DNA from: Acuticoccus mangrovi
Lineage (GTDB): Bacteria; Pseudomonadota; Alphaproteobacteria; Rhizobiales; Amorphaceae
Direction: 5' to 3'
DNA length: 64,000 nucleotides
NCBI RefSeq assembly: GCF_016411865.1
Contig: NZ_JAEKJA010000009.1
Location: 62,001-126,000, forward strand
The translations under genes were made by a program, and so were the position numbers. How positions within the stretch are numbered: position 1 is the first letter of the stretch; each line of letters begins with the position of its first letter. The notes under the pieces were generated by a model, which was given only the letters and a program-made list of their open reading frames with translations, made no database searches and was not told the origin of the DNA. This document shows, in pieces, positions 53,543-57,881 of the stretch.

Positions 53543-54274
53543 CTAGTAGTGGCGGAGGAGGGCCGTCAGGCGGCCTTGGATACGCACGCGGTCGGCACCG
53601 AAGATGCGCGTTTCGTAGTCCGGATTGGCCGCCTCCAGCGCGATGGTGTTGCCGCGCTTGCGCAGGCGCTTCAGCGTAGCCTCCTCCTCGTCGATCAGCG
53701 CCACGACGATCTCGCCCGTGTCCGCCTGGTCGGTGCGGCGGATGACCACCGTGTCACCGTCGTGGATGCCCGCGTCGATCATCGAATCGCCCTGCACCTC
53801 GAGAGCGAAATGTTCGCCGGGGCCCAGCATGTCCGCCGGCAGGTGGATCGCATGGGTCTTGTGCTGGATCGCCTCGATGGCGACGCCGGCGGCGATGCGG
53901 CCCATCACCGGAATGTCGATCACGTCGTGGGCGGCGGCGACCGGGCGCAGGGGCGGGCGGCGGAACTCGCGGCTCCCGTCGAAGCCGATCGGCCGGCTCG
54001 GACCCTCGATCACCGATGGGGAGAAGCCGCGGCTGCGGACGGGCGGATCGGCCGACACCGAGTCCGGCAGGCGCAGCACTTCCAGCGCGCGGGCCCGGTT
54101 GGGCAGGCGGCGGATGAACCCGCGCTCCTCCAGCGCCGTGATGAGGCGGTGAATGCCCGACTTCGACTTGAGATCGAGCGCGTCCTTCATCTCTTCGAAC
54201 GAGGGTGGCACGCCGGTGCTGCTCATCCGCTCGTGAATGAACATCAGAAGATCATACTGCTTCTTGGTGAGCAT
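53543..54274 (-). CDS. lexA: LexA repressor
   Basis: 243 aa, SOS-response repressor. Winged helix 1-65 ([32 protein letters not shown]), then a proline-rich hinge, the self-cleavage site A129-G130, and the serine-lysine pair S164 (GDSMIDAG) and K202 (ATLKRL). The ATG at 54272-54274 is the family-standard start. Upstream is an SOS box, so it autoregulates. It is longer than E. coli LexA because of the hinge insert (66-110), normal in the order. Confidence 0.95.
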
Positions 54275-54349
54275 GGCTCGCGACGGTCCCGTTATGGCGC
54301 GGTCAGCGCGTTGCAGGTTTGCGAATCGTTTCCCTCGATTCGCTGAACA

Positions 54350-54421: not shown

Positions 54422-55591
54422 CTAGAGAGGCAGATATTCGCAGGGGCTCCCTGCTTCAGCCGGCGGTGCACCAGGCGGACGCACCAGAAGAACTTCGGCC
54501 CGGGACAGAATCGAGAGCATCGAGGAATCCTGCACCTCGAAGGGGTTGATCCGCCCGTCCACTACCTGCGCGCGCATATGGTCGCGGCGGGGTCCGTTCT
54601 GCGGCACGTCGGCGCCGAGGATGCCGGCGAGCGGCTGCGGCCCCGGCGAGGCGACCCCCTGCAGCGCCTCCACCAGCGGCACCAGAAAGAGGAGGGCGCA
54701 CACCACGCTGGAGACCGGATTGCCGGGCAGGCCGAGCACCAGCGGGTCGGAGGCGAACATCAAGGGCTTGCCCGGGCGGATCGCGACGCGCCAGAAGTCG
54801 ATGGCAATGCCGAGATCGGCGAGGGCGGGGCGGACGAGGTCGTGGTCCCCCACCGACGCGCCGCCGAGGGTCACGAGAATGTCGGCGGTGCTGAGGCCGG
54901 CCCGGGCGCGGGCGACGATCTCGGACCGAATGTCTGGCGCGATGCCGAGGTCGATGGCTTCGGCGCCCGCCGCCGCGACCATCGCCGACAGGGTAGGGGT
55001 GACGGAGGCGACGATCTGGTCGGGCCCAGTCGGCTCGCCGGGCGAGACGAGCTCGTCGCCCGTCGCGAGGAAGGCGACGCGGGGACGGCGGACCACCTCG
55101 AGCCGGGCGTGGCCGCCCGCCCCGGCGAGGGCGAGATGGCGCGGCGCGAGCCGGGTTCCGGCCGGCAGCAGCGTGCCCCCCGCCTGAAAATCGAGTCCCA
55201 TCGGGCGAATGTGGGCGCCGACCTCGACGGTGTCGGTGGCGGTGAGGAGGTCGCCGTCGCGCTGCGCGTCCTCCTGGATCAACACGGTGTCGGCGCCGTC
55301 GGGCACCGGGGCGCCGGTGAAGATGCGCACCGCTTCGCCCTTGCCGAGCGCGCCGTCGTGGCGGCGTCCGGCGACGGATTCGCCGACGACCCGGAGCGGT
55401 CCGTCGGCGAGGTCGGCGGCGCGCAGGGCATAGCCGTCCATCGCCGAGGCGGCGAAAGGGGGTTGGGTGCGCAGCGCGGGCAGCGGGGCGGCGAGCGTGC
55501 GGCCCGCGGCGTCGGCGAGTGCGACCGTCTCGGTCGGCAGCGTCGCGGCGGCGGCGAACAGCCGCTCGCGGGCCTCGTCCACGCTGATCAT
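54422..55591 (-). CDS. moeA: molybdopterin molybdenumtransferase
   Basis: 389 aa. Inserts molybdate into molybdopterin. Features: [13 protein letters not shown] (about 46-58), [20 protein letters not shown], the ATGDELV block, [11 protein letters not shown] (about 238-248), and [16 protein letters not shown] (about 295-310). The ATG at 55589-55591 overlaps the stop of the trpC-moaC gene (ATGA). Together with the MoaC part upstream it forms a molybdenum-cofactor pair. Confidence 0.95.
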
Positions 55592-56859
55592 CGTGCGGCG
55601 CGCCATTCGCCGGAGCGGCCGCCCGACTTTTCCAGGAGCCGGATCGGACCGATCTCCATCCCCCGATCGATCGCCTTCGCCATGTCGTAGAGGGTGAGGC
55701 AGGCGGCGGACACAGCGGTGAGCGCTTCCATCTCGACGCCGGTCTTGCCGGTGGTCGTGGCGCGGGCGGTGACGCGGTAGCCGGGCAGATCCGCGTCGGC
55801 GACGAGATCCACCGACACCGAATCGAGCGGCAGCGGATGGCAGAGCGGAATGATGTCCGCAGTCTTCTTCGACGCCATGATTCCCGCAATGCGCGAGACG
55901 GCGAGCACGTCGCCCTTCTTCACGTTGCCGGCCTCGATGGCGGTGAGGGTGGCGGGCGCCATTCTCACGCATCCCTCGGCCACCGCCACGCGCTGGCTGA
56001 CCGCCTTCTCACCGACGTCGACCATGCGCGCCGCACCTGCCGCGTCGAGATGGGTGAGGCCGCCGCCGAGGAGGGCGCGGGTCGCGGCGGCGACGTCGTC
56101 CTGGCGCATCAGGCTCTCGCCGACGAGGAAGGCGGCGCAGCCGGAGCGCTGCAGGCGCACCACCTCGGCGTTGGTGGCGATGCCGGACTCGGCGATGAGG
56201 AGGCGATCGGGCGGCACCAGGGGGGCGAGGCGCTCGGTGACGGCGATGTCGGTCTCGAACGTCCTGAGGTCGCGATTGTTGACGCCGATGAGGGGGGAGG
56301 GAAGGGCGAGGGCGCGCTCGAGATCGCGCTCGTCGTGGACCTCCAGGAGGGCGGCCATGCCGACGGCGCCGGCGGCCTCCACCAGCGCACGGGCGAGGCG
56401 ATCGTCGACCGCGGTCATGATGACGAGGATGCAGTCCGCCCCCCACACGCGCGCCTGCCAGACCTGCTCGGGGACGTACATGAAGTCCTTGCGCAGCACC
56501 GGCAGCGTGCAGGCCTCGCGCGCCGCCCTCAGGTACTCCGGCGCGCCCTGGAAGGAGGGACCGTCGGTGAGCACCGAAAGGCAGCTCGCGCCCCCCGCGG
56601 CGTAGGCGCGCGCGAGCGCGGGCGGGTCGAAGTCGGCGCGGATGAGGCCCTTCGACGGGCTCGCCTTCTTGATCTCGGCGATGAGGCCCGGCCGCCCTGC
56701 CGCGGCCGCCGCCCGCAGCGCGCCGACGAAATCGCGCGGCGGCGGCGCGGCGTCGGCGCGAACGCGCCAGAGGGCGGCGTCCTCGACGAGGCGCGCGTCG
56801 GCGATCTCATCGCGCTTGTAGGCCTCGATGCGGGCGAGAATGTCGGGCGGTGAGTCCAT
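55588..56859 (-). CDS. trpC-moaC: bifunctional TrpC-MoaC fusion: indole-3-glycerol phosphate synthase and cyclic pyranopterin monophosphate synthase
   Basis: 423 aa in one frame. Residues 1-266 are Trp[15 protein letters not shown] (60-73), [26 protein letters not shown] (119-126), IGVNNRDL (191-198), IAESGI (222-227). Residues 267-423 are MoaC: the normal start [22 protein letters not shown] with H341, and [11 protein letters not shown] with D392 and K395, the catalytic pair. There is no stop or start signal at the junction (about base 56060), and the two parts join with almost no linker. One catalyses ring closure in tryptophan synthesis, the other makes cPMP for molybdenum cofactor. The start ATG shares one base with the trpD stop. 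Confidence 0.9.
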
Positions 56860-57881
56860 CAGGGAGCAACAGCCTGGGAGACGGCGACGAGGGCGTCGAG
56901 GCGACGCTCGGCCGCCCCTTCGTCGAGAAGCTTTTGGGCGAGCACGACGCCTTCGGCAAGCCCCTCCACCTTCTCCGCGACGACGAGGGCGCCGGCGGCG
57001 TTGAGGCAGGCGATGTCGCGATAGGGTCCGGGCTTGCCGGCGAGGACGGCACGCAGGGCCGCCGCGTTGTGGGCCCCGTCGCCGCCGACGAGCGCGTCGA
57101 GCGGCACGGTGGCAAGCCCCACGTCGGCCGGGTCGACGGTGAAGGACCGCACCGTGCCGTTCTCCACCGCGGTCACGTCGGTGGGGCCGACGGTGCTCAT
57201 CTCGTCGAGCCCGCCGGCGCCGTGGACCACCCAGGCGCGGCTCGTGTCGAGCGTCGCCAGCACCTCCGCGATCGGCTCCACCCACTCGCGCGCGAAGACG
57301 CCGACGAGCTGGCGGTCGACACCGGCCGGATTGGAGAGGGGGCCGAGGAGGTTGAACACCGTGCGCGTGCCGAGCTCCACCCGCGCCGGCCCCACGTGCT
57401 TCATCGCCGCATGGTGGGCGGGGGCGAACATGAAGCCGATGCCGGCCTTCTCGATGCAGGCCGCGATGCCGATCGGCGACAGGTCGATGCGCACGCCGAG
57501 CGCCACCAGCACGTCGGCCGCGCCGGACTTCGAGGACAGGGCGCGGTTGCCGTGCTTGGCGACGGGCACGCCGGCGGCCGCCACGATGAAGGCGGCGCAG
57601 GTCGAGACGTTGTAGGTGCCCGAGGCATCGCCGCCGGTGCCGACGATGTCGATGGCGTCGGCGGGGGCCGTCACCCGCGTCATCTTGGAGCGCATCACCT
57701 CCACGGCGCCGGCGATCTCGTCGACCGTCTCGCCGCGCACGCGCATCGCCATCAACAGCCCGCCGATCTGGGCGGGGGTGGCCTCGCCCGACATCAGCAC
57801 CTCGAACGCCTCGGACGCCTCGTCGCGGCTCAGACGATCACCGGCCGCCGCCTTGGCGATGAGGGATTTCAGGCTCGCCAT
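56859..57881 (-). CDS. trpD: anthranilate phosphoribosyltransferase
   Basis: 340 aa. Transfers phosphoribose from PRPP to anthranilate in tryptophan synthesis. The glycine-rich substrate loops are clear: [17 protein letters not shown] (about 79-95), [17 protein letters not shown] (about 107-123), [17 protein letters not shown], and the [14 protein letters not shown] block. ATG 57879-57881 with GAAGG upstream. It is followed by the TrpC-MoaC fusion with a 1-base overlap. trpG and trpE are not in this window. Confidence 0.95.

Follow-up and report, generated by a model that had tools for sequence, protein, structure and literature searches.

Gene fusion is widely taken as a sign of proteins working together. 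What, then, is to be made of a gene of Acuticoccus mangrovi that joins two enzymes of different pathways, namely TrpC (indole-3-glycerol phosphate synthase, IGPS) of tryptophan biosynthesis and MoaC of molybdenum cofactor (Moco) biosynthesis: is the fusion genuine, how did it arise, and does it point to a link in function? The gene lies in a window of 64,000 nucleotides (the whole stretch analysed), where it runs from 56859 to 55588 on the minus strand as a single frame in which 423 sense codons are followed by a stop, with a calculated product mass of 44.55 kDa. An earlier note on this DNA had described an unbroken frame from TrpC into MoaC and a 45-kDa product, both of which are borne out; its coordinates for the gene are also right, with the correction that the gene is on the minus strand. 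The features of the locus are as follows.

53543..54274, minus strand: lexA, downstream of moeA, with the putative start MLTKKQ (Pfam LexA_DNA_bind and Peptidase_S24 on 53546-54322)
54422..55591, minus strand: moeA (Pfam MoeA_N, MoCF_biosynth and MoeA_C), start overlapping the moaC stop by 4 nt
55588..56859, minus strand: trpC-moaC fusion gene, 423 aa (open frame; both NCBIfam models above cut-off; open in 8/8 Acuticoccus)
55591..56058, minus strand: MoaC domain, residues 268-423 (TIGR00581; 1ekr match; catalytic residues kept)
56023..56025, minus strand: internal ATG, Met279 (MVDV), a possible second start (ATG in 8/8 Acuticoccus)
56059..56067, minus strand: junction codons GGC GGC GGC, residues 265-267 (junction DNA)
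56065..56859, minus strand: TrpC (IGPS) domain, residues 1-265 (NF001370; catalytic residues kept)
56859..57881, minus strand: trpD (Pfam Glycos_transf_3 and Glycos_trans_3N), stop overlapping the trpC start by 1 nt (TGATG)

The NCBIfam model NF001370 recovers TrpC at residues 6-265 (401.7 bits against a cut-off of 348) and TIGR00581 recovers MoaC at residues 268-416 (196.6 bits against 141.5), with NF006870 likewise above its cut-off at residues 268-421. The Pfam IGPS and MoaC models are matched from end to end (residues 8-263, model positions 1-254 of 254, and residues 279-414, model positions 1-136 of 136), and the MoaC part matches the PDB MoaC structure 1ekr with an E-value of 5.8e-46. 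The moeA ATG lies at window position 55591, and its overlap with the stop of the fusion gene, already seen in the earlier note, amounts to 4 nt in all eight Acuticoccus genomes, with ATG, GTG or TTG as the moeA start. Overlaps of this kind are associated with tight translational coupling in the excerpted text of PMC10666635; the arrangement fits termination-reinitiation at moeA, which would then be coupled to the fusion gene. At the other end of the gene, the trpD/trpC TGATG lies at window positions 56857-56861; the 1-nt overlap is found in four of the eight Acuticoccus loci (L001, L005, L006 and L008), L007 has a 4-nt overlap, and L002, L003 and L004 have gaps of 16, 5 and 274 nt.

A conservation search covering the window's genome and 60 relatives recovered the same frame, devoid of stops, in all eight Acuticoccus genomes, the other seven versions being 71-82% identical to that of the window. 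Exact matches tie the fusion gene of L004 (G002) to Acuticoccus yangtzensis (L033), that of L005 (G004) to A. kalidii (L034) and that of L008 (G001) to a metagenome-assembled genome titled uncultured Rhodobacteraceae bacterium (L035); NCBI taxonomy places Acuticoccus in Hyphomicrobiales, Amorphaceae. Because the frame is stop-free in eight of eight genomes, strains of A. yangtzensis and A. kalidii among them, chance or read error is excluded for the Acuticoccus fusion. Within the genus we found nothing in favor of a spurious frame or of an error in sequencing or assembly, a reading that is practically out of the question; the one case where an error could be at work, G788, which rests on a lone TGA to TGG difference in one genome, lies outside Acuticoccus. 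In the sister genus neither of the two genomes has the fusion, trpC and moaC being separate, and the trpC of one of them (L021, G008) matches that of Amorphus coralli (L039) exactly. We consider it probable that the fusion was fixed in the ancestor of Acuticoccus.

The junction, of the form ...LL-x-x-x-LTH..., has exactly three residues and no indel in 8/8 Acuticoccus. The two residues before Leu268 are GG, NP, NP, NP, TP, SG, RA and PT in the eight genomes. Leu268, Thr269, His270 and Gly275 of the N-terminal arm of MoaC are invariant amid arm positions that otherwise vary. The earlier note had seen a complete MoaC N-terminus two or three residues behind TrpC: the join is indeed three residues long, but the intact part of MoaC begins at Leu268, and missing are the start codon and a further 2-6 residues that precede LTH in the unfused MoaC proteins compared. 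Over the 11 codons that precede LTH, in-frame ATG and GTG are absent from all eight genomes. The single TTG in this interval belongs to L008, where it forms part of the last TrpC helix at five codons from LTH; within the arm, L007 carries a GTG as codon 9, two codons ahead of Met279. The window's gene has none of ATG, GTG and TTG in frame between Met251 and Met279. On this comparison of sequences, nothing is left of the trpC stop, the spacer or the moaC start codon, and of TrpC tail and MoaC start segment together no more than three residues survive. This does not agree with the proposal of the earlier note that the arrangement follows exactly from loss of the trpC stop.

Unfused relatives show 1 to 22 TrpC residues after the column of TrpC Leu264, followed by a stop, and their moaC starts at least three codons before LTH in the cases shown. 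The shortest such tail (1 residue), a converted stop and the shortest moaC start segment (two residues after the start codon) would together exceed the three residues of the junction, so that a deletion or a frameshifting indel has to be invoked. The simplest such event is a deletion that preserves the frame. Another is a frameshift at an overlapping stop and start, with subsequent loss of the ATG; a stop/start gap of -4 is present in 16 of the 108 unfused loci. In this sample, which is biased towards in-frame pairs, as many as 62 of the 108 are separated from fusion by a single stop codon and constitute possible intermediates, as does G788 (L126), which has TGG where its congeners have the trpC stop TGA and keeps the moaC ATG two codons on. 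G788 is likely a first stage of fusion, or an error, and differs from Acuticoccus in that the spacer and the moaC start are still present in its linker.

The earlier note had proposed a search for the fused architecture in Hyphomicrobiales, and the fusion is indeed found there in 9 of 397 genomes. In this census of the order 31 genomes have a match at E <=1e-108, the nine stop-free ones being the eight Acuticoccus and G160, a member of another family (thus two genera), and the other 22 having one stop. Only 1 of 20 genomes of the family of G160 reaches E <=1e-108, and in G276, the other member of its genus, the two domains are in different open frames. In a census of the class 54 of 385 genomes match at E <=1e-90, of which four (G000, G760, G477 and G470) are stop-free over both domains, 32 others have stops, and in the last 18 the match is confined to TrpC. 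Among the 21 genomes of the family of G477 are a genus, g221, with the fusion in 3/3 genomes (G760, G477 and G787), and another, g362, with it in 1/8 (G788); a further search, of an order with 22 genomes, yielded no fusions beyond those of this family. These censuses used the above thresholds and four scored candidates per genome, because of which distant fusions may have been missed. The fused loci number 14 in total.

The initial 134 loci were reduced to 122 by setting aside ten duplicates or re-fetches together with L020 and L023 (no moaC in the stretch), and 14 further near-duplicate or truncated rows were removed before a tree was built. The resulting tree of 108 loci, in which the long branches L130 and L129 are uncertainly placed, cannot be explained with fewer than five changes of state, and by a quick method its well-supported branches force three; a single origin of all fusions is disfavored by this method. 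Beyond Acuticoccus, two or more alphaproteobacterial lineages (perhaps four) have similar fusions, which seem to have arisen separately, where trpC and moaC adjoin. The neighborhood of trpC and moaC in this order, noticed earlier in the window, is seen in relatives; as moaC lies about 1.6 kb downstream of trpC in L020 (G019) and some 276 kb away in L023 (G027), close neighborhood is not universal. Outside Acuticoccus the linkers measure 9 to 20 residues. G470 (a 67% complete genome) has an ATG at the first codon of the LTH segment, giving MTH, and three codons before LTH G788 keeps an ATG and G760 has a GTG; because of these codons MoaC may start on its own in all three.

The short linker had been thought problematic for the folding and oligomerization of both parts. 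The junction is as short as claimed, but in a predicted structure the final helix of TrpC (256-263) lies about 24 residues from the opening strand of MoaC (from 288), and as the tether would thus have about 24 residues rather than three, the concern is eased. The AlphaFold2 model of a single chain, based on a 61-row alignment, has a mean pLDDT of 94.9 and a pTM of 0.75; both domains are confidently predicted, with a mutual placement that the pTM does not settle. Residues 261-280 have block-mean pLDDT values of 79 and 71, and the N-terminal arm of MoaC contains no helix or strand of three or more residues in the model. Among the best 50 of 1893 PDB matches recovered by Foldseek all are IGPS-type or MoaC entries and none spans both domains. 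MoaC structures share a common hexamer with an active site formed by two subunits, as described in the sections of PMC3602415 covered here, and with its arm as a flexible tether the MoaC of the fusion may still form its usual oligomer.

A search of 18 genomes gave a single MoaC and a single IGPS match in every one, and no second moaC or trpC that would free one half from constraint was found in these 18; given one match each, the fusion is the only source of trpC and moaC found in the eight Acuticoccus, two of whose genomes are less than 93% complete. The catalytic positions of IGPS, which we take to be E51, K53, K110, E159, N180, R182, E210 and S211 (Sulfolobus numbering), are all conserved in 8/8 Acuticoccus when placed by motif rather than by structure alignment. 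The same holds for the presumed active-site positions of MoaC (K51, H77, E112, E114, D128 and K131 in E. coli numbering, transferred via the 1ekr alignment), which are retained in 8/8 Acuticoccus and in 108/108 unfused loci, and the earlier statement that both parts keep their catalytic residues thus extends to the whole genus. MoaA and Moco-binding enzyme domains were detected in 12/12 genomes searched, with 19 such domains in the genome of the window, which rules out that MoaC is needless for want of molybdenum enzymes and implies that it should be needed. For A. yangtzensis, the part of PMC5747140 consulted lists 31 genes for form II CO dehydrogenases. Sole copies, retained active-site residues and the many molybdenum-enzyme domains together suggest that both halves probably work as enzymes, with TrpC expected to turn CdRP into indole-3-glycerol phosphate.

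The MoaC half diverges somewhat faster in Acuticoccus, the MoaC/TrpC distance ratio having a mean of 1.29 over 28 pairs against 1.05 for the pooled unfused loci (1657 pairs, 5-95% range 0.69-1.46; single unfused clades from 0.53 to 1.41). Although inside the unfused range, this ratio could mean a relaxed constraint on MoaC. One MoaC position that is Ala in 106/106 scored unfused loci is Val in a single Acuticoccus (L007).

The most probable account is that of a real fusion gene, whose product would be one chain of about 44.6 kDa with domains that would fold separately and each carry out its normal reaction, and which is a retained accident of neighboring genes. The closeness of trpC and moaC in many alphaproteobacteria would have provided the opportunity, and it is because the two adjoin that the fusion would have arisen. 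The stop, the spacer and the moaC start would have been lost through a deletion that kept the frame (alternatively, through loss of the stop combined with a deletion, or through a frameshifting indel where the two genes overlapped). The TrpC barrel and the MoaC domain would fold independently, each catalyzing its own reaction, with the N-terminal arm of MoaC as the tether by which TrpC barrels hang on a MoaC oligomer. Such a largely neutral fusion would have been retained because it does little harm and yields the two products in equal amounts (1:1), with moeA coupled to it downstream. It is also conceivable that the fusion was selected, with MoaC acting as an oligomerization scaffold that gathers TrpC barrels, or with the fusion tying tryptophan supply to Moco supply, and that this pairing was reached several times in alphaproteobacteria. 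To our knowledge, however, TrpC and MoaC have no substrate or product in common, and we know of no link between their pathways. Genus-wide retention, the fixed linker length in Acuticoccus and the fused genes of other lineages, with genus g221 fused throughout, would agree with selection, as would the widespread trpC-moaC neighborhood (moaC follows trpC in 25/25 cases in the portion of the metagenome study PMC2395257 at hand). Yet the fusion is rare in the order at the threshold used, being confined to two genera, the linkers of the other fusions differ, and gene closeness alone could explain repeated origin, so that we regard selection for the fusion as rather improbable.

A different possibility is that the frame is fused and MoaC is nevertheless made also, or mainly, as a separate protein through internal initiation at Met279 (MVDV) or at Met251 (ESLMR, inside TrpC), both of which are ATG in 8/8 Acuticoccus. 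A MoaC lacking most of the arm is possible, as the alignment with the archaeal structure 2ohd sets in only at query residue 10, immediately ahead of Met279, and the MoaC part of the NCBIfam model NF002947 also begins at Met279. The earlier note had named the ATG at MVDVGEK, with a Shine-Dalgarno of its own, as the case that would speak against the fusion. This ATG is equally common in unfused MoaC (107/108 loci, 121/122 overall) and hence is no adaptation. Anti-Shine-Dalgarno pairing upstream of it is fairly strong in the window and two other species (-7.0, -8.6 and -7.8), but these energies resemble those of unfused internal ATGs (p 0.72), and since the measure is blind to true moaC starts, which score no better than internal ATGs (p 0.45), it is uninformative at this site. 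The junction shows no excess synonymous constraint, in a test of low power in which the moeA-start control is equally flat; the strongest signals lie elsewhere, at 115-134 and, to a lesser degree, around Met251 (238-257). The invariance of the four arm residues upstream of Met279 also argues against an internal start, which we judge unlikely. Far less probable still is cleavage of a full-length chain between TrpC and MoaC: confidence in the model is near its lowest at the junction, which may be exposed, but no conserved cleavage motif is apparent there across the eight Acuticoccus.

Set against fusions of known kind, the retained accident that we favor has ordinary parts, and its TrpC-MoaC pairing is unusual and apparently new. 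It resembles TrpC-TrpF of E. coli (PDB 1pii; NF006945) in its N-terminal IGPS followed by a second enzyme, with 255 columns matched in Foldseek, the size of IGPS; TrpF, however, belongs to the tryptophan pathway, while the Acuticoccus partner, MoaC, belongs to another. NF006945 accordingly scores 243.5 bits on the fusion against a cut-off of 380, the C-terminal part being MoaC and not the TrpF barrel. TrpC-TrpB (NF010375; 160.6 bits against a cut-off of 1386) shares the same order of an IGPS and a second enzyme, and differs in that TrpB is again of the tryptophan pathway. The models for MoaC-MoaB (NF002947), MoaC-MOSC (NF011069) and MoaC-MobA (NF011070) likewise describe MoaC and another domain in one chain, but with MoaC N-terminal and a Moco-related partner, and all stay far below cut-off on the fusion (180.9 of 285, 171.1 of 457 and 128.1 of 606 bits). 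Fusions of MoaC with MoaE and MoaB in Archaea appear in the passages of PMC11237513 used here. Those of PMC2395257 report the Sargasso Sea metagenome fusions TrpE-PLPDE_IV and TrpF-TruA, which are of other gene pairs, and there TrpC-MoaC figures only as a neighborhood. No TrpC-MoaC fusion is mentioned in the parts of PMC2395257, PMC11237513 and PMC4921024 available, and a word search of the main text of the A. yangtzensis genome paper (PMC5747140) finds no fusion, tryptophan or molybdenum. The literature searched, mostly without subscription journals and without protein-domain databases, contains no such fusion, though it may have been described elsewhere.

With unfused sister lineages and possible intermediates at hand, the locus offers a natural test of how far gene closeness alone yields fusions, and it counsels caution in predicting function from fused domains. 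It is also a simple test case for whether MoaC tolerates a large N-terminal partner.

We also observed, in two genomes of one family (G703 and G615), that the moaC beside trpC encodes a protein of 257 aa (L114:1198-1968, minus strand, and L115:2317-3087, plus strand), in which MoaC at 15-150 is followed by a Cro/C1-type HTH domain (HTH_26) at 198-253. The HTH_26 scores are 29.7 and 23.3 bits with a cut-off of 22, one of them narrowly above it. On its domain make-up, this MoaC-HTH protein is a possible candidate for a MoaC-linked transcription regulator.
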